A DNA stretch of 33,057 bases from Saccoglossus kowalevskii. Lineage: Eukaryota; Hemichordata; Enteropneusta; Harrimaniidae. The position numbers and the translations under genes are program-made. This document shows positions 1 through 25,230 of this stretch, one piece after another. The stretch's first letter is position 1, and each line of letters opens with the position of its first letter. The notes beneath the pieces are model-generated. The model was not told the DNA's origin and searched no databases. It saw nothing but the letters and a program-made list of their open reading frames with translations. The stretch is from positions 89,737 through 122,793 of the forward strand of contig NW_003119935.1 of NCBI RefSeq assembly GCF_000003605.2, given 5' to 3'.

Positions 1-857
1 TTACCACTATTATTAAGTGAAGCTTGAATAGCTTTGGTCTGAATATCATGATGTATGGATATTGTCGCTGTATCGCCTCGACATCCAAGCCAACACAGCT
101 TTAGCTGTGCTCAGCGACATTTATTCTCGGGTCAGGCATTTTCACCGCCTGGCAACCATCATGGTGAAACAAAGGCCATAAAAGTCCCAGAAAACGGTAT
201 TTTGGGATGGTTGTTGTCACTCCCTACATATGCAACATATTTAAATTTGGTTGGATTTCTTCAAAGTTAAGTTTGTGCTGTTTTCTCGATTTTAGCTATT
301 TTCACCGGCTTTTTGATCAGTGCACAGCAGCTCGCGCAGAGTCCATAGAAATACTTGGTAGAGTGGTGCGCGTCTTAAATAGCAACGTGGAGCGTTTAGT
401 GACTTAACTCCGCCTCGAAGATTTTGATAGCTTGGCCAAGCGCGTTGAAGAAAGAAGTTATATGATTGGCTGTTGTTAAACTGATTCTAAACTGTGAGGG
501 CATTGTCACATACACATAGTCCTAATGAAATACTTCAAGGTGATAGTGGAGTGCTTCGCCGGAACATTCACCTTGAAAATTCAAGATGGGTGTAAACTAG
601 CTGACTTAACGTTTCTACACTAAAATACAAACTAGGCTAAGACTAAAAAATTATTGGTCAATGCAGCATAACTACATGATGTTAGTATGGAATGGCAGAT
701 TGCAGCGTGACTGCAACTTGAAGGTATACGACAGCAAGTGCTGCGGCAACACCCTAGTTACATTTCGGCAAGAACAATGATATACAATAACAAAGTGTTA
801 TACTACTAGTGTATTACCACAGGCATATGGTACACAGTCGGAAGCAATAGTTAATAT
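1..857. other. Upstream flank or intron of gene 1; no supported exon
   Basis: Short open frames occur at 55-270 and 207-407, but neither has a signal peptide, a convincing donor in phase 0 or a recognisable domain. A small hairpin (CACAGCT, TT, AGCTGTG) sits near 91-106. The 5' exon of gene 1 is therefore not identified here and may lie before the window. Confidence 0.4.
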
Positions 858-879
858 AATGATTTCTCTTTTTTTCCAG

Positions 880-1356
880 AAAAAACTTTATGACGACAAC
901 TTTGAAATGTTGCTGAATCATCAATTATCTCCCAAAATGGTTTATGATCTTACTCTGAAAACTAAAAAGAATAACTTTCCTGATTCAACAAATGTGTACA
1001 ATCAGTATGAACACACAACTGCCAGTGTACCTGTAACAAGTGGATTATCAGACGCGAATCTTTATGATGATGATGATTCTAATGCAGCTGATTTAACAGG
1101 CGATGAGTTGGAAGCGGAAAGTATAGCATCATACGGACCATATACACAATTTCAGTTCAATTCACAGCCCTCTGAATTTGATAGATCGTTTTCGAGTATT
1201 GTTGACAGCGATGAAGCAGGAATATCCGATCAACTTGATGCGCCACCACCAAACATTGCACACATGGATAGCCTAGATATTCAAAATACGCCCCAAGTCC
1301 CGTTTGGAATCCAGCCACATATTGTGCCCCATTTCCGTGCCGGGTTCCTACCACCG
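880..1356 (+). CDS. Gene 1 exon A: acidic cysteine-free linker
   Basis: 159 codons, phase 0 at both ends. The exon opens with K-K-L-Y-D-D after a polypyrimidine tract, so the ATG at 859 lies in the intron and is not a start. A D-D-D-D-S run and many E/D residues sit near residues 65-85. The exon closes with a hydrophobic, Pro-containing stretch (HFRAGFLPP) just before the donor at 1357. Gene 2 exon 2 is of similar size, also lacks cysteine and ends in a similar hydrophobic/Pro stretch. Confidence 0.8.
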
Positions 1357-2805
1357 GTATGTATGTATGACATTCACATATAGCAATAAGGCGCTATCAA
1401 CGTTGTCGCATGTCAATGTTGGCTTCTATTTGCTTTTTATACCTCGCTGCAAATTTAAATCGCCACTTAATTGACTGTCTGGGCTCAGAGTTGTATTTAT
1501 ACTAGCCAGAAAGCAGGACTTGCAGTACTCTCATATCTCGCGAACGTCATTGTAAATTTTAAGATTGATTTCAGTATGTGTTACTATTAAATTGAAAGTG
1601 TTACTAGTAAATGAACGCAACAAACATCACTGTAATCCTATTCTCTACTCTGTGTAGCCAATGGTTAAAGTGGAAGCCTGGTTTTCTTGGGAAGATTTTC
1701 CAATATTCAGTGACAGCATTGTGGTCCCACCCATGGCAGATGTAGTGGAAGTTCTGGATAAAGCCTATGCGAGTTTCGTGAGAAAACGTTCTGTCTCTAA
1801 CTACCCATATCCCTCTCACTATGAAATAGAAAGAGTAAGTGGGAACTGTGTTATTCTGAAGGACTTTGTGGGTGTTCCTGTACAAAACCAACTAGCATGG
1901 ACAATAACAATACTAGGACTACGAGGCGAGGTAAGACAAACATTGTGACTTAGGCATGTACCCTGGTCACCTTTCAAACTGCTATATTTTAGTTATTACT
2001 AGTCGTTGATTTTTAAATCTGCATGTTTAGCATTTCAACACGTTTTGAAACAACGATTCCTGATCTTAAATTCAAACACGTTTCAAACACGTGGTACCTC
2101 AAATGGCAAACATTCAACCTCATCTGCTGTTGAGAACACATCTCCTTAGATCTTTCGCTTTATGAGATGCCGATTGTTTATAAATAATATGAATAATTAT
2201 GATGTCTGTAATTGGGGTCCAAACAGGGATTGGATCCCTATTGTTATCGTTCTCGATTTTCTTCTTCTTCCGACGTTTTTTATGTGCGCTTGTTTGATAA
2301 AACCGCTGAAGGAATCTCCTCAAACTTGCGGATTTAGAGCGGGAGGGTCGTCACCTGCGCACGCGCGGGAATTGAGTCCCAAACGATGATAACAGTACAC
2401 GTTAAGAACGCAAAGGCTCATGGGTAGACGCTTGTTTGTAAACAATGACACGCTATGGCCACCTGGCGCATGCGTAGGTGACGACTCCCCCGCTTTAAAG
2501 TATGTAATATTTTATTTCATCTGTGTCATATTACTCAATAGCATGCGATTTGTAAAGACATTTTTTTAAAGAAAAACTGAGAAATGCACAGTAAATTTTA
2601 CTTTCAGCAGTGACAACATGCAGTATAAAATTAGTCGAATTCGCTTTAACTAATATTTGTTATTTTTCTTCTGTTGTGACAGAAACTATCCGAGAGCTTG
2701 TGCCTGCCACCAGCAGACCTGTACGTGTTGTCTGGTTATACAGTTGAGCTTGTGTATGGACCCTTTACTTCAATAGAAGACGAAAAAAGGAATGTTAACT
2801 TGTGA
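880..2805 (+). CDS. Gene 1: 3' portion of a spliced gene, unrecognised protein with a two-cysteine C-terminal domain
   Basis: Three exons (880-1356, 1658-1930, 2683-2805) join in one frame and give 290 residues ending at a TGA (2803-2805). Both introns are phase 0 with GT-AG ends: donors GTATGT and GTAAGA, acceptors after TTTTTTCCAG, TGTGTAG and TTGTGACAG. Exon 1 of this model is an acidic, Ser/Asp-rich linker with no cysteine. The other two form a compact domain with two cysteines, one in a G-N-C-V-I stretch and one in L-C-L-P-P, followed by SGYTVELVYG. The same layout recurs in gene 2 of this window (16360-19277, - strand), so the two are probably paralogues. By analogy the missing 5' end should be an exon with a signal peptide, making this a secreted protein. 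I do not recognise the family; function is unknown. The exon chain is well supported, the complete gene is not. Confidence 0.8.
1658..1930 (+). CDS. Gene 1 exon B: first part of the C-terminal domain
   Basis: 91 codons, phase 0 at both ends. Visible landmarks are V-V-P-P-x-A-D-V-V-E-V-L-D-K-A, then a Y-E-I-E strand, a single cysteine in G-N-C-V-I-L, and A-W-T-I-T-I-L ending in R-G-E at the donor. Gene 2 exon 4 has the same landmarks in the same order (TVNNVL, Y-S-V, E-C-Y-V-I, V-W-F-I-V-V-V, N-G-K). Confidence 0.8.
2334..2498 (-). mobile_element. TTAA-type MITE, copy A
   Basis: About 157 bp (2338-2494) with terminal inverted repeats: AGCGGGAGGGTCGTCACCTG at the left and the complement of AGCGGGGGAGTCGTCACCT at the right. 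It is flanked by TTAG (2334-2337) and TTAA (2495-2498), the first a likely one-base mutation of a TTAA target duplication. The interior matches copy B (4138-4301) in the opposite orientation, including CAAACAAGCGTCTACCCATG when read on the - strand. No coding capacity, so it must be non-autonomous. TTAA duplications suggest mobilisation by a piggyBac-type transposase; that is inference. Confidence 0.8.
2683..2805 (+). CDS. Gene 1 exon C: last strands of the C-terminal domain, with stop
   Basis: 40 codons plus TGA. It contains CLPPADLYVLSGYTVELVYG, which lines up with CLPDEKIIVRPGYTVKVVLL in gene 2 exon 5. An AATAAA at 2811-2816 begins only five bases after the stop. A second AATAAA at 3211-3216 would give a 3' UTR of about 400 bases and looks a more usual polyadenylation signal. 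Confidence 0.78.
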   Translation, partial: KLSESLCLPPADLYVLSGYTVELVYGPFTSIEDEKRNVNL

Positions 2806-2816
2806 AAAATAATAAA

Positions 2817-4137
2817 CACTTTCCTTTATCTGGATAGTATCGCCATAAACTATATTGCTAAGGCACCACAATTTCAGTAATTGGTACAGTCTATAAAAGT
2901 GTCTTTGAGAAGAATCCAAATCTGCAATATACAACGTGTTGCTGTAAATCACGTACTTATATCACATTAAATGTACACAGACAATTAATTATGATTTTGT
3001 TAAAATTTAGTCGTATTGTCCAATGTTGTAACAGTTTACAGTTGTGTCATATGACCACATGTACCCAGATTTAAAGATATGTATAATAATAATGATAATT
3101 CTAATTATTGTTGTTTAATTTATGTAATTTCTTATCAATTGATATGTATATTTGTGGAAGTATTATTTATATTAATAATTTAGTTCTTCAACTATATACA
3201 CAACAACATTAATAAATATAAGGTAACCTTTTACAGATTTCAAACTCGTACGATTGTCTTTACTTGAAAACACTTCTTCATTGCTTTGTACAAATAGAAC
3301 ATCAAGTGAATTAACGCATCAGCTAACATGCTATACAGATGTGACAGCCTTTAGGGCAACACGCCGATCGGAAGGACGAAGCTTCTGTGTATTCATGTGT
3401 GACCATGCAATATCAGATTTCGGAACTTCTACTTGCAATTAATAAATTTAATTGCACTCCGAGTAAATTTGACCCATTTGATATCCGCTGTGTGCCATAT
3501 ATCCGTTTCGCAGTTTTTAAAACATTTCGATAACGGAAACGTAATTTATGATCGCGGAGTCATTGAGACTACGTAGTGATTGGTGATTTGCATAAATGAT
3601 TTGAAAGGGGTAGTTGTCGCGCCACATATGCGTCAGATTTCTTTGGATAAATACGTTGATTTCCCCGGTATTGGTGTTCATAGGTTAGGGAACACACAGA
3701 GGATTGTAATGCACAATATGAACCTCGGTACCGCCTTTGCATTTCACTGTGATGGAGGTTATCAACAATTTCGATCATATACTAGGACCCATATCTGACG
3801 CATAAGCGAATCACCGTTAGTTGACCCTCACGGTTTTCGGGACGCATCGTTTACTATTCACTATATACTGGTCTTTTCATAACCAAAATAGATGAAACAA
3901 TCTCACGATGCGCGGTCATGTTGCCACTGGGTGAATAAGAATATTATCATAATATTTAGTATGCCTGTATGAGCCAAATAGATGACAGGTTATTACTACA
4001 TGAGGATAATAACAATTATTGCAATGCTTTATTGCACTATAATCTATTATATAGGAATACATAACCAACGTCATTATATACTAAAGTTATTTTCCAAACC
4101 TACGCTGTGTAAACAGCAAATCTAAAGTTTGATGTAG
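2817..4137. other. Intergenic stretch after gene 1
   Basis: AT-rich DNA that holds the probable 3' UTR of gene 1 and then no supported gene. The one structure seen is a spaced inverted repeat at 3582-3815: TATGCGTCAGAT (3627-3638) against ATCTGACGCATA (3793-3804), with an outer GGTGATTTGC / GCGAATCACC pair. The roughly 70-codon frames open on both strands there have no recognisable domain. Confidence 0.4.
3211..3216 (+). promoter_or_regulatory. Candidate polyadenylation signal of gene 1
   Basis: AATAAA lies 406 bases past the gene 1 stop, at the end of an AT-rich stretch that could be 3' UTR. The competing AATAAA at 2811-2816 almost touches the stop codon. Sequence alone cannot say which is used. 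Confidence 0.35.
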
Positions 4138-4301
4138 TTAAAGCGGGGGAGTCGTCACCTGCGCATGCGGCAAACGGCCATAGCGTGTCGCTGTTGACAA
4201 ACAAGCGTCTACCCATGAGCCTTTGCGTTTTAGCGTGCGTTGTTATTGGCGCTTAAAACTCAATTCCCGCGCATGCGCAGGTGACGATCCTTCCATTTTA
4301 A
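4138..4301 (+). mobile_element. TTAA-type MITE, copy B
   Basis: About 156 bp bounded by TTAA at both ends (4138-4141 and 4298-4301). The inverted repeats share TCGTCACCTGCGCATGCG, with AGCGGGGGAG at the left and the more diverged AATGGAAGGA at the right, just inside the TTAA. It is the inverted counterpart of copy A, 1.6 kb away. The intact TTAA pair defines the family boundaries well. Confidence 0.82.
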
Positions 4302-4679
4302 AAAACACCAAGGAACGATTATGTCGAATTACAATAGAACGCTTTGTTAACTGGCAAATTTGTTAATTTAAAGCCCTTCAATATGCTTAAATTTGTGAAA
4401 TGAAGGACCAATGAAAATAAATGGTTTTACAGTACGCCGTTTCTGTAAGTCGCGCCATCCAGCGACAAAGTGGATAAGTGTTTAAAAGGAAGCAAAGGAC
4501 ACCGTGGAGGGCGTTGATACTGTTTTGATCTGTGGTCGTCCGCCAATGAATACATACTGGAATAAATAATAACAAACTACCAAACATCATTGTCAAGTTT
4601 AATGACAGTGCTTACACCCATTTATGCCATGTTGATGTCACGGAAGGAAATTATATTATAATTTTGATTACCTAAGTTC

Positions 4680-5341
4680 CCCGGGGGTCCGACTTGTGGA
4701 AATACCTGGAACCCATGTCTGTGAAAGGGGTTTTCAAAATGACCCAAAATACGTTTTTAAAGGACAAAATTTCGTACCCTTTTCCCTGTTAGAAAGCTTA
4801 AAGATCACACACCTTGAACTCGCGCCTGATCTCGCGATATTTAGGCTTTCTAACCCTTCAGTGTAAGCACGGGTTGGTCATAAGCCGTGATCGCCCGTGA
4901 TCGAGGGTCGTTAACCAGGGGCCGGACGTTTCCTCGTACCCTTTTCAATGTTAGAAAGCTAAATGATCACACACCTTGAACTCGCGCCTGATCTCGCGAT
5001 ATTTAGGCTTTCCAACCCTTCAGTGTAAGCACGGGTTGGTCAGAAGCCGTGATCGCCCGTGACCGAGGGTCGTTAACCAGGGGCCGGACGTTTCCTCGTT
5101 TTTGCAATCATTGAAATCCTTAAAGCAATAAAAAAAAAAAACGATAATACCATTTAAAAAATAACCACCCTTATCACGCTGGCAGTACCGGAAAAGACAC
5201 CCTTTTTGGCTATTTTGACTGAAATGGTAACCCTAAACGCTTAACGCGCGTTAACGTGCTTTTCTTTAAAAATACACCCTTTTAAGGCGTTTTCTTTCAC
5301 AGACATACGTTCCAGATCATTCTTTAAGTCGGCCCCCCGGG
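4680..5341. mobile_element. Non-autonomous DNA transposon with long TIRs
   Basis: The ends are CCCGGGGGTCCGACTT and, reverse-complemented, CCCGGGGGGCCGACTT. The inverted similarity continues inward for about 55 bp, including CTGGAAC and ATGTCTGTGAAAG at both ends. Flanking 8-mers CTAAGTTC (4672-4679) and CTAAGTCC (5342-5349) differ at one base and fit an 8-bp target duplication, as in hAT or P-type elements. The interior is more GC-rich than its surroundings and has no ORF, but carries a 162-bp tandem duplication. The transposase class is inferred only from duplication length; the termini are not the usual hAT CAGGG. Confidence 0.72.
4773..5098 (+). repeat. 162-bp unit, two tandem copies inside the TIR element
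   Basis: Unit 1 is 4773-4934 and unit 2 starts at 4935. Both begin CGTACCCTTTTC and contain GATCACACACCTTGAACTCG, CTCGCGATATTTAGGCTTTC, GTAAGCACGGGTTGGTCA and GGGGCCGGACGTTTCCTCG, with only a few differences, so the duplication is recent relative to the TIR divergence. Confidence 0.9.
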
Positions 5342-5349
5342 CTAAGTCC

Positions 5350-6093
5350 CCCTAATCGACAACGTCGCCATAGAAACTGAGGGACTGTGGTTTAATTAAT
5401 CATGAATTGGTCTTTTAATATATCCCGAATATTCACATGAATTGCGCCCTCAACCGACATATACAATTTCCTTACTATTACCTGGCAACACGTCAGAACT
5501 ATGTTCCTCATTGTTGAGTATCATATTTTGTATTGCTCGTGGAAAGCACTAGAATAAAGTGATGATTTTTTTTTAGAAACCCCGATCTCTGCAAATGCTT
5601 TTGTGCAATTCTTATGCAAATGTCATGAAAATATTTCATGGTCTTTGATCGCGATTCATCGTCAATTCAGTCATGATCAATTCAGGGTGCATAGAATTTA
5701 CAATTTCCAATTTAAATTTAAAATGTTGATCCTAAATATAATTGACCTTTTGTGTAATCGTTTGCCATCTAGAATGTAGTCAATGTAGTCAAATCCCAAA
5801 TGATTGATTGATTAATTGATATATAGTTACAGGCCAGAACGACGTCGACGCTGTGTCACCCAATTAGGCATTACTAGAGGGCGCAACATAACTGTCAATA
5901 TACTATTTTAATATACCTAACATAGACTTTATGACATGTAGTCTGAGGGCGTTAAAGTGAGTCAAAAGTCAAAACTATACCCTGAAACTGGTAATCCCCA
6001 GGTTAATAGACGCACAACAAATATTTGCATTCATTATTGAACCTATTTCACCTTGCTGACACTTAAAAAGGCCCCAAACTTAATGTAATATAA
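5350..6093. other. Intergenic stretch
   Basis: No gene is supported. A single ACTAGAGGGCGC at 5873-5884 resembles half of a vertebrate-type CTCF core and recurs elsewhere in the window. Confidence 0.4.
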
Positions 6094-6795
<702 letters not shown>

Positions 6796-6949
6796 TTTCA
6801 AAGTATGTGTTTACATGTTTCAAAGTATGTGTTTACATGTTTCAAAGTATGTGTTTACATGTTTCAAAGTATGTGTTTACATGTTTCAAAGTATGTGTTT
6901 ACATGTTTCAAAGTATGTGTTTACATGTTTCAAAGTATGTGTTTACATG
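6796..6949 (+). repeat. 22-bp minisatellite, seven perfect copies
   Basis: The unit begins TTTCAAAGTATG and ends GTTTACATG. 154 bases equal exactly seven units with no mismatch, which implies very recent amplification or homogenisation. Each unit carries TGTTTAC, the core of a forkhead-factor site. Because 22 is not a multiple of three and no reading of the unit contains a stop, the array is open in several frames; the small proteins it appears to encode (repeats of FQSMCLHVSKYVFTC) are artefacts. Confidence 0.97.
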
Positions 6950-8389
6950 TGCATTTTGAAATATAACACTTGTTGAACGCAATAAAATCATGTGTGGATT
7001 TATCCCTTCAAAAAAAAATAAAGCAGTGGCACCAAAATGATTGCCGTTTGAATTGTTTTGCAATAGACACAATTTTAGAATGAAATGATTTGATATATAT
7101 GTGAAGTGTATATTGTTGCGTCAAATCCAAATTAGACATTGCCCTCTAGTGGCTGCATTTTTATGTATTTCTTGGGTTCATACCGTGTTCTCTGGCGATG
7201 AAAATGATTATTTCCTTGAAACATCTCTTCACTTTATTCCATCATTATTTCAATTAAGTCTGATTATTGGTCGACTGGTTATCATATCAATCTATATTTC
7301 ATCTGCTTTTGTATCGCATTTTTTGAAACAAGTATTTATATCATGTGAAAAAGCATACCCAAACACACTACTTAGTATGACATCACTTTCTATATTTTGA
7401 ATTATATTTGGATGGAAATGAGGGTGAAGAAAGGATAGTTTCCTCTGTGTCACATTTAACATATACTCAAGTTGACATTATAGTTAGACCTATGTGACCT
7501 GGTAATTATGATTGTTTGAAATTACTCGAAATTTGAGATTTATGTACTTTGCAAAATGTATTATTGTCGCCAACCAGAATTCACGAAAAGATATTATAAA
7601 ATTAATTGTTCACAGGCAAGGCATCCACGATGTTCTGTTAAAATCGTAATGGAGGTTAAATTGATGCATTATTATATTTGTTCAATATTTCATGATATTT
7701 AATTGAATATCAATTGTGGTACAAAAGTACTTTGTTCTGCCAGCTTAACTTATGAAATACATCAGAGCATCTGATGAACTTGAATTATGAGGGAAATGGA
7801 AAAGGAAATTAACACTGTATATTGAGCTAGTGTTAGTATACCTACAAGAGGACAGGAAATGTTATGCAAAATGTCGCCATGCGTGAGAAATATACATGAG
7901 AATAACATTTAAAGCTGAAAGACCCAATGAAACTATTTGATCAACATCGTACACAAACTGATCGTAATCCAAAGAAGAATGAAACCAGGAACCAAATGAT
8001 TTATTCAACTAAAACATCACTGACCTGATAGATCAGACAGCAAGGAATCTTATGTGAAAACAAAAATACCTGGTACAAATCCGAATCTAGCTGTACTAAA
8101 TTTCAGAAACACAGAATCACCAAGTATAAAGTCCAAAGACTCATATACCTACAATGAATAAACTTCTCAAACCAACAATAGTTGAAAATGTAGAACATAA
8201 GATAAAGAAGAACAAAGCCAGACAGGTCACAAAGTAGGCAATGTCAGAATAACTGCCAAACCTGGAAAGAAGTCAACATGCAATGCATGCACACTAAAGT
8301 ATAATTATGAAGTTATAACAAAGAATGAACAGGAATTCTTATATATATATCAAATTCAGCAGCTGTCAATATTACAGAAAATGTTGCGC
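6950..8389. other. Intergenic stretch with a possible decayed coding relic
   Basis: No intact gene. From about 8050 to 8345 (+ strand) short frames such as ESYVKTKIPGTNPNLAVLNF and, after a shift, GNVRITAKPGKKSTCNACTL look protein-like and could be a broken transposon or gene fragment, but I do not recognise them. A 99-codon frame at 7101-7400 starts with GTG and has no supporting splice site or domain. GCCCTCTAGTGG occurs at 7141-7152. Confidence 0.25.
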
Positions 8390-8464
8390 CTCAGCCACAC
8401 CAGATAACCAAGCACTCAGCCACACCAGATAACCAAGCACTCAGCCACACCAGATAACCAAGCA
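8390..8464 (+). repeat. 25-bp direct repeat, three perfect copies
   Basis: The unit begins CTCAGCCACACCAG and ends AACCAAGCA. Three head-to-tail copies without mismatch. Confidence 0.97.
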
Positions 8465-10035
8465 AACCCCACGATCACTTAATAGGCTATGTATTATAGC
8501 TAGAACACGGTAGTTATCTGCAAAAGTTACATATATGAAAACTGTCCATTAGTTAAGAGATACACGAATTTATTCTACAATTTGCCCTCGAATTTAAACA
8601 CACTATTTTGTTCTGGTTCTAGAAAATATCGTTGTATAACTGTACTATCACTTTATTGCATTAATATGTATTATTATTCAATGTTCATGTTTGCAGTTGA
8701 GTAAGCATGGTTTGAAAGTGTATGGTTAAATAACACAGCATATGATTCATTTCATATTTACATATTTTGATGAAGTACTTTCCATCACCAATCCTAAATT
8801 TAATGATTATATTTTTCTGCTGCATTCTTAGATCTGATCAGCTTTATACCAGACTATATGACAAAAGATCATCAATTTTCGACACCTTTACAGCAGTAAC
8901 TCAATTCTCTGCTACATATGGGGTAAAAATTCAAAAGGTCTTTTGGCAGATATAATTACCTTGCATCAATGTAACATGAAAGAAAGCATTGGTTTTCGAA
9001 TTTCGGTAGCTTCTTTTGGCGTTTTTTCACTGATCGACGATATAATATATAGCAGTATATATTAAACGAAATACTCCATTCCTGTCGCAATAATTTGATT
9101 CTTTCTTATTGGTCAATTACCTTAATGTCAGAAAATATGACATAGAACACTTGTACTGTGATTAAACTAAAACCAAAATACACCCTAAAAAGTCGAAATA
9201 TTCTGAATAGTTAGTTTTTATCAGATGACTTGGGTTTTTTGCTTTCAATTTTGTGCGATCGCACTTTGTTATTGAGTGGTTTCACAAATTTCATGATCTG
9301 TATACATCCAGTACTGCGTATGTAATCGACTGTGTACTCGAGTTATTATGAGGACTCCCACATTATGCACTCAGACGGTACATATTTTCATCGAACAACG
9401 AATACTCTTAGGGTACGTTTCTCTGCTTTCACGGTATCCTCGTTATTCAGCAATATAATGAGGGCGCTACATATTTTTGATGAGATCACTATGATTGTGT
9501 ATGATATAAGATTATCGATTTGTAAACGCGTTTATTTAGATATATTGACTCCCACCATTGGAATTTGAAGTGTTTTGTGTCATCATTTGTAGAAGAGGAA
9601 ACGTACTTTTTCTGCCAGTTGCAGCATAAATGTTTATAGGCTTGAATTTTAAAATTAGTAGATGCTCACCAACTCATTCCGACACTTACTTTTCAAGACA
9701 TCATTCACGAGTTAACATAGCACACAAAGCAGATAAACAATGCGCCATCAGATGTGTGAGCAAATATTTTTTCATTACTCAGAAATGACACGACAAAGCC
9801 ATGACTTGTTATCTGGTGTCACTGCATTATTTATTTATTTATTTGCTTCATAACTCGAGCCCATTATTTGGATAGTTCAACAAATCCAGTTGGGGCATCG
9901 AATTACTTGTGTGAAATGGTGTTTATATGTCATCGGCTGAAACGGGAAATGAAATTCTTGATAGCGACGATGCTTTTCAGTTACGTAAATGTAAGTTACG
10001 TAAGTTTGGTATAAACATTTAATGAAGAACTGTCG
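8465..10035. other. Intergenic stretch
   Basis: No supported gene. A 62-codon frame at 8767-8955 starts with a hydrophobic segment (LMIIFFCCIL) but has no flanking gene structure. A 78-codon frame at 9332-9568 has no recognisable feature. Two TTACGTAA-like palindromes lie near 9980-10002. Confidence 0.3.
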
Positions 10036-10775
10036 TTTATGGCACATTGTTTAATAGTGAAGTATCTTATAGGACACAGTGTTCAAAAGAAGTCCATTTT
10101 AGAGTGCAGTGTTCAATAGAGAAGTCTCGTTTAGGGTACAGTGTTCAATAGATAAGTCTCTTTTAGGGCACAGTGTTCAATATGAAGTCTCTTTTAGGGT
10201 ACAATGTTCAATTGAGAAGTCTCATTTAGCGTACAGTGTTCAATAGAGAAGTCTATTTATGTTACAATGTACAATAGAGAAGTATCTTCTAGGCTACTGT
10301 GTTCAATAGCGAAGTCTCGTTTAGGGTACAGTGTTCAATAGAAAGTCTCTTTTATGATACAATATTCAATAAAGAAGTACCTTCTAGGGTACTGTGTTCA
10401 ATAGCGAAGTCTCGTTTAGGGTACAGTGTTCAATAGAAAGTCTCTTTTAGGATACAATATTCAATAGAGAAGTACCTTCTAGGGTACTGTGTTCAATAGC
10501 GAAGTCTTTTTTAGGTTACAATGTTCGATAGAGAAGTATCTTCTAGGGTACTGTGTTCAATAGAGAAGGCTCGTTTAGGGTACAGTGTTCAACAGAGAAG
10601 TCTCGTTTAAGGTAAAGTGTTCAATAGAGAAGTCTCATTTAGGGTACAGTGTTCAACAGAGAAGTCTCGTTTTAGGTACCAAGTTCAGTAGAGAAGTCTC
10701 GTTTATAGTACATTATTCAAAACGGGATGTCGTTTAGGGTGCGATATTCATTGAAGAGTTCTCATTTCGGGTTAA
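10036..10775 (+). repeat. ~32-bp satellite array, about 23 diverged units
   Basis: The unit consensus includes CAGTGTTCAATAGAGAAGTC followed by TCGTTTAGGGTA. Units differ by point changes and one-base indels. From about 10270 to 10500 a higher-order pattern of three units (about 95 bp) repeats: one marked by CTTCTAGG, one by AGCGAAGTCTCG, one by AATATTCAAT. The period is not a multiple of three and frames are broken, so it is not coding. Confidence 0.93.
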
Positions 10776-11500
10776 AGATACATTTATAATAGAAGTGAAG
10801 GTTAAACCAGGTCACCCCGTATATACTTTGATACAAACACCTTTCCTTGTGTGAGAAGGAAAATATAGTCTGTTATACATATTACTATATATATATATAT
10901 ATTTTTTTATTTAGATAATGACAATTTGTTGGTCACAGCGCCCTCTAGTATTTGTTGGGAAACATGTTTATTTAGAATGCTCTGATTGGATGGAAGTTCG
11001 AGCCTAGCAAGGTATGATAGAATTGGCCTGTTATGTTCAGATTCAAATAAGTATTAACCACTAATTTGACAGGGAAGTGATACTTATAATGCAGCAAGCA
11101 TTTTAATTGCTGTTGTGGTCGAGTTTTTATATTTTCCTGTCAAATGCATTTATTGGTCCACTTAAAAATCAAAATAATGTTCCCTGTAACTTAGACTCTT
11201 GTTAATCAAGGCATTTTTAAAATCATGGGTGTTAACTCCCCTCAAGTTATGACACATTGTCCCTTATAAAATAATGGTTGCTAATATTAAAATAAAGATG
11301 GCGGAGTATAGCGTTGATTCATCTCTACTCTGGATTACTTGGAGCCAGTAAAGATCCTAGAAAGTTAGTATTTATATGCCTGTGAGTTTTTTGTTTTGTT
11401 GTTTCACTGTCTTTGACTTTCCCAGAAAGTTTGTTGCTATTGACAACAATTCAGTCTTGTGCAAGGCTTCAGTCAATGTTTTTTTTCACTACCTACCCAT
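10776..11500. other. Intergenic stretch
   Basis: Short TA tract at about 10887-10902 and GCGCCCTCTAGTA at 10938-10950. At 11298 an ATGGCGGAG sits in a favourable start context but the frame closes after 17 codons. No gene supported. Confidence 0.35.
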
Positions 11501-11504
11501 CTCC

Positions 11505-11760
11505 TCGTCAGGCACTATGTAGCTGGTGTGGTATATTTATCACAGACAGTAGGGCATTTGTCACATTTAGTGTTCCAAAAAAATATTCTCTGTCCATGTG
11601 TATTTATATAAATAGATGCAGTTTCTTTGGCTTGAATAACATTCACTGGCTTCGTACATACAGGTACACTGGTTTACCTGTTTCTACTTGAAATTTAGCC
11701 AATCTTATTACCCAAGACTATTGGACATTTGCCACATGTACTCACACTCGTTTCCAAGTG
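11505..11760 (-). pseudogene. Decayed C2H2 zinc-finger fragment
   Basis: On the - strand, with frameshifts and stops, three zinc-finger-like units follow each other: TCGKCPIVLGNKIG, then a linker-like ETGKPVYL, then a unit with YINTHGQRIFF leading into KCDKCPTVCDKYTT. These match the C-x2-C-P-x-V pattern and the H-T-G-x-(K/R)-P-like linkers of C2H2 fingers. The first and last units are also similar at DNA level (TGTGGCAAATGTCC against TGTGACAAATGCCC) 171 bases apart, as expected for tandem fingers. Missing histidines and stops show it is dead. The 92-codon + strand frame over the same bases is a shadow. Confidence 0.45.
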
Positions 11761-11969
11761 TCACAGCTTGAAACAAGTGGTAAAATCTGATATTGGCTGG
11801 AGCTTTTGTTTATATGGAAATGGACATGGTGAACGGCTAACTAGATGGTCAGAAAGTAATAAAAATAATCACAGGTTTACTTCACCCACCCCACTATGAA
11901 GTGAAAGGCTGTTTATAAGGCCATTTATGATGGTTTCATGCGGTAATAGAGGAATTAATACACAACTAC

Positions 11970-12035
11970 ATGAGTAGTGAAACTCGACAGCACTGTTTCG
12001 TAAGGTACAAGTACCTCACTCATCAGGAACTTTAT
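11970..12035 (-). ncRNA. Hammerhead ribozyme in the Penelope 3' region
   Basis: On the - strand the core CTGATGA (12026-12020) is followed by stem II (GTGAGGTAC, loop TT, GTACCTTAC with one G-U pair), then CGAAAC (12000-11995), a minimal stem III (CAG-TG-CUG), and the cleavage triplet GUC with the cut predicted after 11986. Stem I forms between AAGUUC before the core and GAGUUU after the cut. All core positions (CUGANGA, GAAA, UH) are present. Hammerheads with a tiny stem III are a known feature of Penelope-like elements and are thought to act best as dimers. The ribozyme looks intact although the ORF is dead. Confidence 0.88.
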
Positions 12036-12122
12036 GTTTAATTCACTGCACCAACGAGCATACATATACAAATGTACTTCGCAAATTAACATATTAATTA
12101 CAAATAAAAAAAACATACAGGT

Positions 12123-13045
12123 TTAAGTGTTACATAATAAGGCTTTTGATCTGTGTCGGCATGATGATACAAGTTCATTTCTTTTGTTTAGTGTGGAGTG
12201 GTGAGGTCTAAAAATTATTATAAATTTTTCCTTCAAACATAGAATGCATCGTTTACTGGAGCTACTGTACGGGCTACCACGAGCAAGAATTGTCCATGTT
12301 ATTCTGTGCTCAATATTTTTTCTTTAAGTGATCAAACATATTTACTTAGTTCTGTCGCATTTCTAGAGGCCTGATTACGAAATGAGGCAGTGTGGTTTCT
12401 GTACCTTGTTTTGAATTCATTTCCAGTGAGACCGAAGTACGTTTCGCTAGTTTGTTTGTCTAAGCACGTAACTTCCGCTTGGTATATCACGCCGGACTGC
12501 AAAAACTTCCCGTCCAGTGGACATGCCGTTTTTTTCTGACAATTGCATAGTTTGTTGACTTTCGTTTTATCAGTTGTGGTGCTCTTATCAGTCGCGAGTT
12601 GCCGTTTGTTGTTACTGTTTTTGGTATCTTTTATATTGTTCATACAGCTATAGCTGACTTTGATGGTATTTCGGTTGAATATTTTCCTGAGATTATTGCC
12701 AGTCGGGAAACACTTATCAATTAAATCCAGGAATCGCTTGCCGATATAGTTACGGACGCTGCAGCTATATGGTGGGTTGTACCAAAGGACATTACTGCGT
12801 GGCCGTTTTTTTTACCCTTCTCCGTGGGGGGCTCAAACTTTAATTGGTGGTTGTAGCCACTTTCACGTAGAGCTCTTTGGTAGGGTGGCGCCGCGGTGTC
12901 AAATATCTTTTTATCTGACGATATAGATGATAATCGCCTGTTAATCCCGGCCGGGATATTCTTTGTGATGGCGGGTGGGTGGTTACTTTCCTTGTGCACG
13001 TATACCAAGTTGGCGTTGGCCTTTGTAAAAGGGCTGTATGAACCT
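12123..13045 (-). pseudogene. Penelope connector and GIY-YIG endonuclease, frameshifted
   Basis: After the RT the sense passes through NHPPAITKNIPAGINRRLSS and, past a shift near an A-rich spot at about 12810, LWYNPPYSCSVRNYIGKRFL. The nuclease follows: a cysteine cluster (CNCQKKTACPLDG), V-I-Y in place of GIY, YFGLT in place of YIG, the catalytic Arg in FKTRYRNH, and Glu in NATELSKYV. A TGA (12332-12334) stands where W is expected; beyond it, after one more shift, HRITWTILARGSPYSSSSKR and CILCLKEKF, then NELVSSCRHRSKALLCNT and TAA at 12123-12125 complete the usual C-terminus. Confidence 0.9.
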
Positions 13046-13545
13046 TCAACGAGGTTTAGCTAGCGTGACATCAAGGAAGTTGACTATCTTCTTATTCGCT
13101 TCGATCGCGATCTTCAGACTGTGGTTTTTGAATACGCGACAGATATCTTGTTTGATCTGTTCAGTCTCTTTGGGTGTGGCGTCTAAGGCGACTAAACCGT
13201 CATCTCTGTAGAGACCGATCCGGACGTTATTCCCTAACCGTGCTCGAAGTTGTGATAGTAAGAAGCAGCCCACAAATTCACAGGTCTCTGCGCCGTCAAA
13301 ACTTCCCATCGTGACATCAAACGTGTTGGAGCCCTTCTTCTGCCACGGTGATTGATTGTGGAACAACAATGTTTGTTTGGCGTGAGAGATGATGTTTATT
13401 TCTTCATCCGGGATGTTATCATAAGCTGAGGCGAAACGCAACGCTTTGCTCAATAGATCTTCGCTTATGGATGGGTAGAATTCCACAACGTCAAAACAAA
13501 TAAAGTTATAACATGCCTTGTTATCGATATTATCAAACCATTAAA
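13046..13545 (-). pseudogene. Penelope-type reverse transcriptase fragment
   Basis: Reads from W-F-D-N-I-D-N-K into [15 protein letters not shown], through [13 protein letters not shown], to the catalytic YRDDGL box and [20 protein letters not shown], the S-x-DGAE-x-CE motif and Y-x-DD-G are diagnostic of Penelope RTs. The first conserved RT blocks are absent. The frame ends prematurely at a TGA near 13046 because of a one-base shift after FLDVTL; the missing sense continues in another frame as EGSYSPFTKANANLVYVHKE. A GTG near 13486 is not a true start, since homology continues upstream. Confidence 0.92.
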
Positions 13546-13546
13546 T

Positions 13547-13570
13547 ATATGTATATATATATATATATCA
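13547..13570. repeat. (TA)n tract at the truncated end of the Penelope element
   Basis: A TATATATATATATATATAT tract abuts the point where RT homology stops. It may mark the target or the junction of the insertion. Confidence 0.85.
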
Positions 13571-15234
13571 TACTATTATACATCATTTCAAGACTGATCA
13601 TTTCATCTAGTGTAGCACATTGATTTGTGTACTACTGTACACAAAGAGCTGTGTACATGTGTAAATGTAGTTTGTCTCATATATATTGTTATATTGTTCA
13701 TTGTACTTTGTTGAAATCTCTAGAGCATTGGTTAATTGAGATTAATGAATTGTTATGTCTTATTCTGAAATAGCTAACACTTTGCCGTTAATAAAAAAAC
13801 AACCAAGGAGAACATATATGATACGATTAATTGTGAAATAAACATATCAATGCGATTGCGCATTGAATTAACTGTACGTATAGGCATATTCTATGGAGCT
13901 AGCATGTACTAGTTAATCATTAATTCATCTTTAATCGTGCTTCTGTGTAAGTTCCCAAAACAACACTGTTTTTTTTTTTGTTGGTTTTGTTTCGTTTTCT
14001 TTTTTGTTTTGTTTATTACTGTATTTACTGTATTTATTATAGTCCTGTAATTGCTTTTGTTATGGGTAATAAAAAAAAATATTAAAAAAAACAAAAAAAA
14101 ACAAAAAAACAACACTGTTATTGTCTGAGACTGAACTCTCGTTCATCGCGTCAAGTCGAGTAAGTCTTGTAACATGTCTGTTGACTCCCGGGGGAATTTT
14201 CTCAACGATCTTTGTGCTTACGTCATAGTTGCCGATTTGCATATTTAACAATCAATGATAGCAGTGCAATTGAAATGCGACGGAAACCCATTATTTCCAT
14301 GTCCTGAAGACATTTCCTCCAATTAACTTCAGCGGAAGAGCGCTCCCGCAACAGATTTCTGCGGCGAAAACGAGATGAGTAGACGTCTTTTGTCAAAATA
14401 CTCCACAGAGCAGAATAACATAGACAATAATATTCTCTCTAGGATAGAATTTGAAAAAAAATGAGGACGATGAATAGCATAACAATATATAGCTATTAAG
14501 TCGCATCTGCGTCATGATTTCAATGTATTTCTCTTGACGTCAATGAAACGAATACATATAGGAACCGAATTGAATTATAATAAGGGCCTTAAAATGTATC
14601 ATTTAAAATGAAAAAAAAATATTCGTGACATTAGATGTATCAATTGTCCTCCCTTGACATGTTGATGCGTGAGGTGAATGTATAAACTATGACTTTGAGA
14701 TAATCTTCATAGCGCGTATGAATTTTAATGTCGCGCAAAATAAAAAATATTTTTTATTTTTATTTTATTTTTTATAATTTGTTTTTCACAATGTTGATCA
14801 CGACTTGCCAACGTAAAATATGGCATATCCGGTTCAAAATTATAAATTATAGAAAAATACGGCGCCCAAATAGTTAATGCGCGAAACAGGACCAGTAAAA
14901 AAAACGTCAAGGAAAATTTAACGAATTTCGCGTCTATAACTATGTTACCGGGGATATGAAGTATTTCTACGAATGTCAAGCGGCCAGGTTAACTATACAA
15001 AAGAAATTACGACACCTTTAAGAAGGAAGTAAACGTCATTTTGTTTATGAATCCACATTTTGCTCTTAAAAATTCATGCGTCGCTTGTACAAAAACAAAA
15101 TAACAATATGCAAGTTTCATGAGCGAAATTTTGTGATATTGATAACTATATCGATCTCTGTATTTCGGACGCTGGATCCTGGTAAGGTCTACATCTAAGA
15201 TTTGATTCAATAAACGGTGGGAGTGTGTGGTTCG
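13571..15234. other. Intergenic stretch with one poly(A)-type insertion
   Basis: AT-rich, no supported gene. It includes the 13971-14119 insertion described separately and a T/A-rich low-complexity block near 14741-14785. Frames of 63-84 codons on the - strand (14060-14251, 14725-14979) have no recognisable domain. Confidence 0.35.
13971..14119 (-). mobile_element. Candidate retroposed insertion with 12-bp target duplication
   Basis: AACAACACTGTT occurs at 13959-13970 and again at 14108-14119, enclosing about 137 bases that begin with a T run and end in A-rich sequence (AAAAAAAACAAAAAAAAAC). Flanking duplications plus an A-rich end fit a small retroposed insert, though both ends are low-complexity, so its polarity is unsure. 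Removing the insert would leave a 57-codon - strand frame from the ATG at 14242 to the TAA at 13920; its meaning is unknown. Confidence 0.45.
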
Positions 15235-15239
15235 ACATT

Positions 15240-15665
15240 GCAGTATATAATTTCCATGTTACCATGGCAACTCAAGCATATGCTTTTGACACAACTAAGA
15301 TGACTAGTAGCTGGTAGGCGCATATAAATCGTAAATAATTGTTAATTAGAATATGTCACCACGTCGTGTTGTACACACACCGCATGGACAGGGGGTTTCA
15401 CAACCGTTTACAGAACCAGCAACTTATACCAAAAGAGCAGCAGAGCGAGACGGCAAATACATATTTTTCTTGTCAGAAATGTATCTTCCCAGTGACACAA
15501 TATTTTAATGACTCATTAAATAGTAAGTACAGTGATATCCAAAGCAGTTTGTCATGAAGTCATGACATAATAAACCAGACAGTAGCCAATCACAACTGTT
15601 CCACTAATACACCTTTTCTATCAATCAAGACCTCTAGTGACAAGGCACTTCTATGCCGTAGAAGG
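15240..15665 (+). repeat. Dispersed repeat, copy 1
   Basis: Shares with 16140-16620 the stretches CATGTTACCATG, TGCTTTTGACAC, AATAATTGTTAATTA, GTCACCAC-TCGTGTTGTA and, further on, CTCTAGTGACAA, at nearly the same relative spacing (about 900-950 bases apart). The middle, where copy 2 holds gene 2 exon 5, does not align. A weaker third relative of the 3' side (TTGAACGA, TCATTTTG-CGTCA) appears at 18440-18515 against 15790-15840. Confidence 0.55.
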
Positions 15666-16139
15666 ATGGCATAATTGCCGTTTAAAGTGTCGATAATTTT
15701 TTATCTGTAGTCGTTTACCAATACGATCATGTTTTGACAGATGTCTCCCTTTTGTAGACAGCGAACGTCTACAAAGATAAACACAATTATTCATTTGAAC
15801 GATGTTGCTTTCACCCTTATACGTCATTTTGACGTCACAGAAACGTCCGAATGATAAGAATGGTGTATTATGCCTCCGGTAGACTTTTATCTTTCACTCT
15901 ATATCTCATGTAAAATGAGTGTTGAGTTTGGGAACTTAATCCAGAACAATTTGATTGTTTTACAGACTTTCTCATTTTCAACTTCCATTTCGTCTACCGA
16001 TGCGCTAAATATGTATACTACACGTACAAAACAACATACCGCAAAACAACAAATACTTTTCTTCTATTCCCAAAAATAGTTATGGGAAAGAATATAAGTA
16101 TTTAATGAAAATAATAACAAAACATGTAACGAAATTATT

Positions 16140-16340
16140 GAAATATAATTTTCATGTTACCATGATAAATCCAGCATAATGCTTTTGACACGTCTTAGAC
16201 GACTAGTGACTGATATCTTGACATATTTATAACCCACATTTAGGTCAATACATCGCAAAGAAGTGTAAATAAATAATTGTTAATTAAATTCTGTCACCAC
16301 ATCGTGTTGTATACACAACGCTTAATACGCAGATAAAGGG
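16140..16340 (+). repeat. Dispersed repeat, copy 2 (flanks gene 2 exon 5)
   Basis: Counterpart of 15240-15400, lying just downstream of the gene 2 stop. It has an extra ~50 bases relative to copy 1 (around 16215-16265). It probably forms the gene 2 3' UTR or flank. Confidence 0.5.
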
Positions 16341-16359
16341 GTGCTTCACAGGTGTGGCG

Positions 16360-16521
16360 TTACTCACGATCGACACCATCATCTACACCATCAGTATCAC
16401 TCTGCGATACATCGTGAATTGGCAGTCTATGGCTCTTAGTAGGTAATAATACAACCTTCACGGTATACCCTGGACGCACTATGATTTTTTCGTCAGGTAA
16501 ACAGCTGTTGAAATATATCTC
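16360..16521 (-). CDS. Gene 2 exon 4: last strands of the domain, acidic tail, stop
   Basis: Acceptor CTTTAATTGCAG precedes E-I-Y-F-N-S-C-L-P-D. 53 codons and TAA (16362-16360). It carries V-R-P-G-Y-T-V-K-V-V, aligned with gene 1 exon C, then a tail of about 30 residues with repeated D-G-V-D. The exon is too short to stand out as an open frame; it is supported by the splice site and the match to gene 1. Confidence 0.8.
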   Translation of the reverse strand, partial: EIYFNSCLPDEKIIVRPGYTVKVVLLPTKSHRLPIHDVSQSDTDGVDDGVDRE

Positions 16522-19277
16522 CTGCAATTAAAGAGACGACGATTGTCGGTGTTAGTGTAGTTAAATGTAATGCAAATTGTGCCCTCTAGTGACAAAGTGG
16601 TTCTGTTTAATGTGTAAAGGGCCATCGATATTGTTGCCCCGCCAAGGAGGTTATGGTTTTTTGCTGATCTGTAAGAAAAATAGCTGAAAACGTTACAAAC
16701 TTATCCTAATGAAGTCGTCACGAAGGGATGCCTTTGATACAAGGTTTAGTTCATTAAATTTTAGTCGCGATGTGGATGTGGTTTCCATGGAATCATCAAT
16801 TTCCGGATAATTTTTCAGTTGAACACAAAATACAGTAGCGTTCATAGGAACTCAACATTCGAACCGTCAGCCATTAAAAATGTAATAATTATATCGTAAT
16901 ACATATATGATATAAAACTTCACCTTTCCGTTGCTGTTGACGACGACGATGAACCATACACGGGAAACTGATGTGTTAATGTTAAGTATGCGACTGATGA
17001 CGTAACATTCATTATTAGTTTGTCGTACACTATATTGAAAAGGATTCGCAATTTCTGAATTTTGAAATTCGTAGTTCCACTGCGCTTGCGTCAATACATT
17101 ATTAACAGTCTGCCGAGGGGTGGAGGTGATATTCTGCGACGCAAAGCCACCGCTGCCATCAGATATTGTCAAAAGCACAGGTAGCTGAAAAAAAGAAATT
17201 ATTTAATTGCATTATTATAATAACAATTAGAGGTTATTATATTCTGATAAGCATTGTATCATTTCGAGCGTCTTAGACTAGTGTATACACACTTCTATCG
17301 AACTAGATTACGGTCACCCAGAGCGACATTCAATATAAATTATGATAACGTACGTTTTTGTGGGGTCAAAAAGTATAGCGTGGTGTAGATTGAATTCCCA
17401 AAATTATTTCCGCAGCTATAAAAAATGTGGCTCTTCGGATATCACGGCTACTATTATGATAACGTTTGATATGTATCTAATTGGGTTGGGATCATACAAA
17501 CGTCACCATTAAGTATTCCTTTTTTATTTTTATTAACACAAAATCTTTTCTGAAAGTCTACACTTTTATCTTGCCTTCGAATTCCACGACAAATCATTGC
17601 ATCGCGCGATTTCAACGGAACATCACCATGGCTGTGAATATAACATATCTCATGTAATACTTTGCCAACCTTTGTCATTTGGAATGCCGCTTGCATCGTA
17701 AGTAAGTTAATTTTAAAAACACGTAAACTGGCATGTCAAGAAACAGTAATCAGGACATCTTACCAATGGTAACAAATGCTGAGGCGCAAAATCTGGCAAT
17801 CCTGCAGCGGGTTTACCGTGGTTCCCAGCAATAGGACCTAATTCATCAGACGTATACGTTGGTTCATGGTTCTTGGCATCAGACATCGTTCGTAGAGCGC
17901 CCGCCACAGAGATCGGAAATTTTTTATTAGAGACAAATTCCCCAAGTGTATCAGACTCAGTGAAGTGCTGAATCGCTGAGTGATGCATTGGGAATTCTTT
18001 CATAGTTGAGGCCGGAATCCCGGTTTCCAAGGGAGCAATTGGTGGCAATTCCATGTGATCTATAGTGGGAGGTGCTGGTAAATCGGAAATGGATGGAAAT
18101 CTTTCTCTTGTCGAATTGACTTCTGGCTTATTACCTGTGGGTCTCCTATTTCCAAACAGGGCTGTTGATAGCGTAATCGGATTATCCTGCTCGAAGAGCT
18201 GTTGACAGATTCAAAAATAATGTTATTTACTAAGAGAGAGAGAGAGAGAGAGAGTTCAGTTAGCTCACATCGTCACTTGAATAGAATTTTCATGAAACCT
18301 GCGCCTCGAGTGACGGAGCTACTTTTTTGACGTAATTCAGAGATAACTCAATCGTCAATATCGTTTTGATTTGTAGTTAATCGAGGAAAATTAGGTTTTT
18401 GAGAAATTTTACTATATTATCGATGGGGAAAGACTACACAAACATACACAGTTATCAATTTGAACGACTTTTTTTTACGTGGAATTACATCATTTTGGCG
18501 TCATAGGTTGGTGCAAACAATAGTAATTAATCTAAAACAATGCAATAATGACATACTCGGAGGAATAAATAAACAACAGTAATTAAACGCAAGGAGCCAA
18601 GTGGTGAAAGTAATTAAAATACTAATAATTATTCATAAAAAATCAAATATGTTTATCCAGAAAAGAATGGTAAAGGTTTAGCTTATGTGTATTGTGTGTA
18701 TTTCAACGGACTGTGTATCGCAGTCAGTGTGACTATTTCACCAACCATTTTACATTCGATATCACATGACACATTAATGATAGGGATGTTTAAACTATTT
18801 TTTTAAATATTAACAACAAAAAATTTTGAAAAGGTGCACTCAAAATATGGCATCCAAACGGCCTTCTGTTACCTTTTGTTCTGGTTGACTGGAATGGTAT
18901 AGGACGTCTTCATTCTCCTTTAGCGTGTCGCAATCAGGCTGATTTGACTTTACATTAATATGATCAGGTAAGTCGTGTTTAGGAATGTATCCAATAATTC
19001 CAATGGGACTTGGTAGGGAATATGAACCGCTACCTTGTTTGTCAATGGAATGTGATGCTTCGCCTGGGATGTGGGCAGGATGTCTAGCGGGCTGTTTCCC
19101 ATGCTGCGTCTGTGTATATTCTTGTGTTTCACCATTGCCGTTTCCGACACTGCTACTAACGCCGGCGCCAGAATAGAATGCGGGTACTTTTTGAAGGGTA
19201 CTAACTGGTACGGAGAGAACTTCTGTCCAGATACAGCATGACACAAGTAGATACGACAAAACCATCGGGGTCCTCAT
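16360..19277 (-). CDS. Gene 2: complete secreted protein of 420 residues, paralogue of gene 1
   Basis: Four exons join in one frame: 19277-18873 (135 codons), 18198-17764 (145), 17184-16924 (87) and 16521-16360 (53 plus TAA). All three introns are phase 0 with GT-AG ends. Residues 1-22 form a signal peptide (MRTP, then a hydrophobic LSYLLVSCCIW core, cut probably after V-L-S), so the product enters the secretory pathway; no later membrane segment is seen, so it is likely secreted. Residues about 23-280 are low-complexity, Pro/Ser/His-rich linker. Residues about 281-395 form the C-terminal domain shared with gene 1, with two cysteines (E-C-Y-V-I and S-C-L-P) and GYTVKVVLL. The tail is acidic (D-G-V-D-D-G-V-D). 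N-glycosylation sequons occur at N-S-T, N-I-T and N-T-S. Family and function are not recognised. Confidence 0.85.
16924..17184 (-). CDS. Gene 2 exon 3: first part of the C-terminal domain
   Basis: Acceptor TTTCTTTTTTTCAG precedes LPVLLTISDG. 87 codons. Landmarks T-V-N-N-V-L, Q-Y-S-V, E-C-Y-V-I and V-W-F-I-V-V-V match gene 1 exon B in order and spacing. The exon ends S-N-G-K with donor GTGAAG. The open frame runs past the donor into the intron (FYIIYVLRYN) and that part is not coding. Confidence 0.83.
17454..17696 (-). other. 80-codon open frame inside gene 2 intron 2
   Basis: Starts ATG at 17696 and reads MQAAFQMTKVGKVLHEICYI, with four cysteines and many Lys. It lies in the intron between exons 2 and 3. 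Exon 2 joins exon 3 directly in phase 0 without it, and no AG in the right phase precedes this frame. It could be an alternative exon that would truncate the protein before its domain, or chance. Confidence 0.15.
17764..18198 (-). CDS. Gene 2 exon 2: cysteine-free linker
   Basis: Acceptor CTGTCAACAG precedes L-F-E-Q-D-N-P. 145 codons in phase 0, rich in Pro, Ser and His, ending APQHLLPL before a GTAAGA donor. The start is upstream of the first in-frame ATG; open sense and the acceptor both support the longer exon. It corresponds to gene 1 exon A. Confidence 0.82.
18233..18254. repeat. (GA)n microsatellite in gene 2 intron 1
   Basis: About 11 GA dinucleotides, 35 bases upstream (in gene 2 sense) of the exon 2 acceptor. 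Confidence 0.9.
18873..19277 (-). CDS. Gene 2 exon 1: start and signal peptide
   Basis: ATG at 19277-19275 gives MRTPMVLSYLLVSCCIWTEV, a classic n/h-region signal sequence, which fixes this start. The rest is a Gly/Ser/His-rich stretch with one cysteine (N-Q-P-D-C-D). The donor GTAACA follows K135 in phase 0; the frame runs on into the intron to a stop near 18840. Confidence 0.85.
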
Positions 19278-22519: not shown

Positions 22520-23182
22520 TGTCATGAATTTGTTTTTGCGTATATGTTGATCGACTTAATTAGCTGATTACGAGTGAATTACTGTGTCATGTCTGTCACC
22601 GTTTAGGCCTATTTGAAGTTTTGGACGGAACTTGGCTCAGTGATTTGGAACTAATTACGAGATAACCGTCGCTATTCTTACTACTATTTCTGACAGTTAG
22701 TATTCGTAGTTATTAACGTAGTGAACGATTAATCAAAAGATATGACGTATTCAGTACTTAGTTTGATTGGATTTATGATTGAAGGTTACGCCTTAGAGTC
22801 TTTTTACTGCTTTGTAATTGGTTAGAGTTTTGAAAATGAATAAAGAGAGTTTGAGTTGGCCTTGGCGAGTACTCCACGACAGAGGCAGTCTAAGTCCAGC
22901 CTAAGAGAGTCCAAGTCCAGACCTAGAGAGTCTTGGGCGAGTCTTGGGTCAGCCTTGCGATAGTCTTGGGGATTTTTCCCCAGGGCACTGTGTCATATAG
23001 AGTACTCGACTGATCGACTAAGATGAGAGTTGAAACGTATTTCGCTGTGTGTGTCTTATTTGACTGTAAAGTATAAGTGACTTTCCTGATCCCGTACCTC
23101 AAAGGGACGCGATATAGAAACGAGACGAGATTCACCCCTGACACGTGTGGAGAACCCCGTGGAGAAGAATTACCCCCTGATA
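22520..23182 (+). repeat. Left LTR (663 bp)
   Basis: Begins TGTCATGAATTTG and ends CCCCCTGATA. AATAAA at 22839-22844 can serve as the LTR polyadenylation signal. It holds about 125-150 bases (roughly 22929-23060) that the right LTR lacks. Confidence 0.88.
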
Positions 23183-23184
23183 CG

Positions 23185-24718: not shown

Positions 24719-25226
24719 TGTCATGAATTTGTTTTTGCGTATCTGTTGATCGACTTAATTAGCTGATTACGAGTGAATTGCTGTGTTATGTCTGTCATCG
24801 TTTAGGCCTATTTGAAGTTTTGGACGGAACTTGGCTCAGTGATTTGCAACTAATTACGAGATAACCGTCGCTATTCTAACTACTATTTCTGACAGTTAGT
24901 ATTCGTAGTTATTAATGTAGTGAACGATTAATCAAAAGATATGACGTATTCAGTACTTAATGTGATTGGCTTTATGATTGAAGGTTACGCCTTGGAGTCT
25001 TTTTACTGCTTTGTAATTGATTAGAGTTTTGAAAATGAATAAAGAGAGTTTGTGTTGGTCTTGGCGAATACTCCACAAAAGACGCAGTCTAAGTCCAGTC
25101 CTAGAGAATGTAAAGTATAAGTGACTTTCCTGATCCCGTACCTCAAGGGGACGCGATATAGAGACGAGACGAGATTCCCCTCTGACACGTGTGGAGAACC
25201 CTGTGGAGCAGAATTACCCCCTGATA
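24719..25226 (+). repeat. Right LTR (508 bp, internal deletion)
   Basis: Same ends as the left LTR. Over the first ~380 bases I count about 18 substitutions against it, so the insertion is not recent. AATAAA at 25038-25043. The missing block starts just after CCTAGAGA and resumes at TGTAAAGTATAAGTG. Confidence 0.88.
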
Positions 25227-25230
25227 CTAC

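Follow-up and report, generated by a model that had tools for sequence, protein, structure and literature searches.

Two old paralogous genes of Saccoglossus kowalevskii and the possible kinship of their C-terminal domain with the transcobalamin beta-domain

A stretch of 33,057 nucleotides from the hemichordate Saccoglossus kowalevskii (contig NW_003119935.1, C1273:89737-122793, referred to below as the window) harbors two genes that lie tail to tail, gene 1 on the forward strand and gene 2 on the reverse strand. The preliminary description of this DNA regarded them as paralogues that encode secreted proteins of no named family, and the question raised by the locus is what kind of domain the two proteins share at their C-termini. 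As judged from their translated sequences, genes 1 and 2 are old paralogues that have strongly diverged. Their C-terminal domain is most likely a divergent beta-grasp domain of the transcobalamin type (SLBB, or DUF4430-like) that lacks the helical alpha-domain by which B12 is clamped in transcobalamins, an assignment to which we attach about as much doubt as confidence. The gene structure in the DNA, the paralogy of the domains and a common pair of cysteines together with a common tryptophan are established; the fold class is supported but falls short of demonstration.

The two-exon C-terminal domains, of about 115 residues, align with a local BLOSUM62 score of 103 against a mean of 27.6 for shuffled sequences, and none of 2000 shuffles reaches 103. 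Identity is 24% over the alignment and 45.8% over 24 residues of the last exons. In the aligned domains the exon junction falls at the identical point, with one cysteine on either side of it and the common tryptophan ahead of it. The homology of these domains is well beyond chance, so that the proposed paralogy is upheld for this part of the proteins. Homology between the linkers of genes 1 and 2 was not detected, as shuffles reach the observed scores in 2147 and 1231 of 5000 cases with BLOSUM62, 2438 and 640 of 5000 with BLOSUM45, and 409 and 1621 of 5000 with PAM250. Nor is there a DNA match between the genes among the best 60 rows of a self-BLASTN comparison of the window, down to an expectation value (E) of 5e-4; the duplication is therefore old and its mode unreadable. 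The inverted local duplication suggested earlier is an inference from the tail-to-tail layout, in which 13,554 bp separate the genes. When each domain was used as a query over the whole genome (572,110,611 bases in 4,830 contigs, the scope of all genome-wide searches here), no further copy was convincing; only the best candidates were scored, and distant copies may escape. Hits on contigs C223 (E 0.07) and C3425 (E 2.7) were rejected as further paralogues because they contain stops, the hit on C223 being the one inspected.

Both genes were rebuilt from the DNA (Table 1), gene 2 from its start codon through its stop. All seven exon lengths are divisible by 3, every intron is GT-AG and in phase 0, and the only stops are the terminal codons of the two genes. 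Rechecking of exon lengths and splice sites confirmed the coordinates, strands, phase-0 introns and common split point that had been given, as well as the cysteine-free linker exon of each gene (exon 2 in the case of gene 2) and the single cysteine on either side of the last intron. The first exon of gene 2 contains three cysteines, at residues 14, 15 and 116, and its start codon is preceded by an in-frame TAG 4 codons upstream. The window has 56 frames of 70 residues or more, and of these the stop-to-stop frames that contain the linker exons rank first (gene 1) and second, with 200 and 165 residues. The idea that one or both loci represent pseudogenes or misjoined exons draws on the missing 5' end of gene 1 and on exon joins that are predicted from DNA alone. 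Against it stand seven open phase-0 GT-AG exons without a premature stop, and a conservation between the copies that is visible at the protein level without a DNA match in the 60 self-BLASTN rows; we consider it very improbable.

The same 5' end bears on secretion, which had been claimed for both proteins. This claim is supported for gene 2 alone, from the hydropathy of its N-terminal stretch (the best Kyte-Doolittle 19-mer begins at residue 5, with a mean of 1.82), because for gene 1 neither a start nor a signal-peptide exon was found and the bases upstream are N. A search of window positions 1-860 for such an exon in phase 0 gave no candidates; of 200 control segments, each 860 nucleotides long, 42 gave at least one. 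The sequence reads N over 7,208 bases ahead of the window and 20,000 beyond it, and the 5' end of gene 1 lies outside the window. The gene 1 product is presumably extracellular.

Searches of Pfam, NCBIfam and PDB sequences with the spliced domains and the single exons (for NCBIfam, the domains only) returned rows at chance level only, those from the PDB being DUF3244, homeodomains and others at E 0.26-7.1. Read from its start codon, gene 2 has no Pfam match and no alpha-domain (PF01122) ahead of its C-terminal domain. Among the titles listed on DUF4430, transcobalamin structures, transcobalamin-like proteins of invertebrates, SLBB/beta-grasp domains (10 of 17) and B12 binders of deuterostomes (12 of 681), none deals with a family like genes 1 and 2, apart from the solo domains of fish described below. 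The earlier statement that the proteins belong to no named family thus holds for sequence searches, but the predicted succession of strands and helix, together with a weak, colinear profile match, points toward a beta-grasp domain of the transcobalamin type (SLBB).

The order of elements comes from AlphaFold, for which the input for gene 1 was domain exon A alone, with exon A of gene 2 as the sole other row. The gene 1 model has a mean predicted local distance difference test (pLDDT) score of 64 and contains the elements given in Table 1. That of gene 2 reaches a pLDDT of 48 and shows the same order of strand, strand, helix, hairpin and strand. The structure prediction proposed in the preliminary description therefore yields a concordant order from both genes, at these scores and for exon A. 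For rat transcobalamin, hairpin b1'/b2', a helix, hairpin b3'/b4' and hairpin b6'/b8' have been listed (PMC11107200), and the hallmark of the transcobalamin-like clade of SLBB domains is a hairpin that follows the helix (PMC1796856). The predicted order of elements suggests that of the transcobalamin beta-domain.

Kinship was also assessed with profiles made from PDB chains of intrinsic factor, haptocorrin and two transcobalamin-2 proteins, plus beta-domains from the same genome, in sets of 4, 6 and 7. Local hhalign against the 4 transcobalamins gives a score of 20.6 over 21 columns, reached by 1 of 200 shuffles, with the reversed query at 11.98. Against the set of 6 it gives 19.46 over 76 colinear columns, which none of 300 shuffles reaches (best shuffle 19.28). 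Global alignment scores 14.19 over 97 columns with the set of 6 (1 of 500 shuffles) and 12.88 over 49 columns with the set of 7 (0 of 500). When a hidden Markov model of the 7 transcobalamins was run against 391 open reading frames and the two spliced domains, the gene 2 domain came first after seven true transcobalamin exons, at E 0.28, followed by the frame of gene 2 exon A and then by a retroelement frame. Under three MAFFT strategies the tryptophan of genes 1 and 2 shares a column with the tryptophan of all seven relatives, although the aligner could yield this without homology. Taken as they stand, these results leave kinship to the end domain of transcobalamin no more than suggestive. 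The resemblance would be generic if the domain, beta-grasp or another alpha/beta type, had arrived at this strand order independently or belonged to another superfamily; this is possible, but on the doubtful side, since the global colinear alignment outscores nearly all shuffles and the post-helix hairpin fits the transcobalamin-like clade.

A number of observations weigh against the transcobalamin assignment. Local hhalign with the set of 7 gives its best score (21.73, reached by 1 of 1000 shuffles) out of register, with the last exon against an N-terminal strand; its second alignment scores 18.5 over 84 columns. The hhalign probability is at most 7.7%, and 0.4% for either gene alone, and the shuffle counts flatter the match because column shuffles drop the strand/helix pattern. 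The gene 1 domain is absent from the listed top of the hidden Markov model ranking. Neither protein has a Pfam match to DUF4430 (PF14478), a test that is insensitive because one beta-domain from the same genome (15.3 bits; the other two pass with 26.4 and 34.9) and human intrinsic factor (22.1 against a cut-off of 23.8) also fail. Over the whole genome PF14478 gives no match at E <=10, although transcobalamin-type beta-domains are present, and this blank arises because exons split the domain. Introns shared with the transcobalamin-type domains of the same genome were rejected, as the sites differ and two of those domains have phases 1/2/1 as against 0/0 in genes 1 and 2. In human carriers a bulky residue of the beta-domain hairpin, Trp359 and/or Tyr362, contacts B12, according to PMC4350170. 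At least one aromatic residue occupies these haptocorrin positions in all seven aligned transcobalamins; genes 1 and 2 have Asn/Ile and Glu/Val there, respectively, in all three MAFFT alignments, a result that hinges on aligning distant sequences. Finally, Foldseek with the partial gene 1 model finds no match at E <=0.001 and no transcobalamin among the best 50 of 673 rows, and the VIA fold search with it finds none in 50 rows, the top row being a ribosomal protein; with a partial model, a blank fold search excludes nothing.

A family with a previously undescribed fold, confined to this animal lineage, would explain why searches of Pfam, NCBIfam and PDB sequences and with Foldseek yielded nothing significant. 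Such blanks say little on the matter because the models are partial and of low to moderate confidence, and the order of elements belongs to a known fold; we judge a new fold improbable.

Under the transcobalamin-type assignment, each protein would begin with a long leader that is probably disordered and end in a single compact domain of about 115 residues, which may act as a secreted binder of a small ligand or a protein. The low-complexity leader suggests a flexible tether. The two common cysteines, one in the hairpin and one just ahead of the final strand, would lie near the ligand side of transcobalamin according to the MAFFT alignment. A disulfide that links the hairpin to the stretch ahead of the last strand could plausibly fix the face that binds the ligand in transcobalamin. 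Binding of B12 by the products is doubtful as far as their sequences can tell. We tentatively propose a lineage-restricted secreted beta-grasp family that kept the transcobalamin-type ligand domain, lost the B12 clamp, and gained a disulfide-locked ligand face, a long disordered leader and a ligand other than B12. If the fold is right, the SLBB beta-grasp domains have a further branch in animals, one that departed from B12 carriers with two domains, and the genome in which it occurs encodes a transcobalamin as well and has two more loci with beta-domain exons. One could then test directly whether beta-domains that stand alone retain corrinoid binding or have been re-used. If it is wrong, the genes make up a secreted family that has no name and is limited in scope.

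Table 1. Exons of the two genes, in window coordinates
Feature	Position	Strand	Description
Gene 1 linker exon	880..1356	+	159 residues, cysteine-free, acidic, Pro-rich end; earliest exon located; acceptor TTTTTTCCAG, donor GTATGT, phase 0
Gene 1 domain exon A	1658..1930	+	91 residues; AlphaFold-predicted strands 3-9 and 17-23, helix 29-44, hairpin 56-60/63-67, strand 82-85; Cys in hairpin; Trp common to gene 2
Gene 1 last exon	2683..2805	+	40 residues and stop; second Cys, then YTVELVY
Gene 2 exon 1	18873..19277	-	135 residues; start codon, hydrophobic N-terminal stretch, low-complexity leader
Gene 2 exon 2	17764..18198	-	145-residue linker, cysteine-free
Gene 2 domain exon A	16924..17184	-	87 residues; Cys, Trp; predicted strand/helix order as gene 1 (low-confidence model)
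Gene 2 last exon	16360..16521	-	53 residues and stop; second Cys, then YTVKVV, acidic tail

The DNA between the genes (2806-16359) contains repeats. A segment in the last intron of gene 1 (2333-2498) has an inverted copy at 4138-4302; most of the 48 genome matches listed for it are copies located elsewhere, mostly 87-95% identical, and it has the look of a miniature inverted-repeat transposable element. A tandem array with a 32/95-bp unit occupies 10026-10720. Two long frames at 12332-13540 on the reverse strand look, by their motifs, like a Penelope-type retroelement fragment (reverse transcriptase and GIY-YIG-like parts); no Pfam match to these frames was found. The 3' flank of gene 2 (16143-16321) has a second copy at 15245-15383, about 0.9 kb downstream on the same strand and 82-88% identical in two blocks. 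Farther along, a 389-bp direct repeat (22520-22908 and 24719-25107) is 95% identical, and a second block (23062-23183 and 25106-25227) is 94% identical.

The transcobalamin-type loci of this genome are found elsewhere: PF01122 has no match on the contig of genes 1 and 2, and all four genomic matches are on contig C1549. A transcobalamin gene at 819.8-821.5 kb of that contig has three alpha-domain exons above the PF01122 cut-off, and a further match, at about 655 kb, lies below it (E 0.22). A third set of beta-domain exons is present at 683.9-689.9 kb, with no PF01122 match listed there. One transcobalamin gene and two beta-domain loci (~820, 655 and 684-690 kb) are thus encompassed within about 170 kb. 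The beta-domain intron phases are 1/2/1 in the two loci that were spliced, those at ~820 and ~655 kb. In an ND1-like frame on a mitochondrial stretch, AAA occurs where Lys is expected and AGA where Ser is expected; this speaks against an echinoderm or a vertebrate and agrees with another invertebrate, perhaps a hemichordate or amphioxus.

The known proteins with which genes 1 and 2 are best compared are the vitamin carriers transcobalamin, intrinsic factor and haptocorrin. With the beta-domain of these proteins (DUF4430, SLBB) they have in common the C-terminal position, the predicted strand-strand-helix-hairpin-strand order and a colinear MAFFT alignment, in which a tryptophan occupies the post-hairpin strand in nine of nine aligned sequences. 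They differ in that no alpha-domain was found upstream in gene 2 and no DUF4430 match was obtained, and in that the hairpin cysteine replaces a glycine found in seven of seven transcobalamins, a second cysteine precedes the last strand, and about 6 additional residues follow the tryptophan strand. Solo beta-domains are known from fish. Shorter teleost proteins that consist of the DUF4430 domain only are described in PMC4350170, and solo SLBB domains of fish with predicted signal peptides in PMC1796856. Gene 2 resembles these proteins in having a beta-type domain without an alpha-domain and in being predicted to be secreted. The fish domains were detected by PSI-BLAST at significant E-values, whereas genes 1 and 2 are not detected in that way, and, in contrast to the fish proteins, the domain follows a leader of at least 159 residues in gene 1 and of 280 residues in gene 2.
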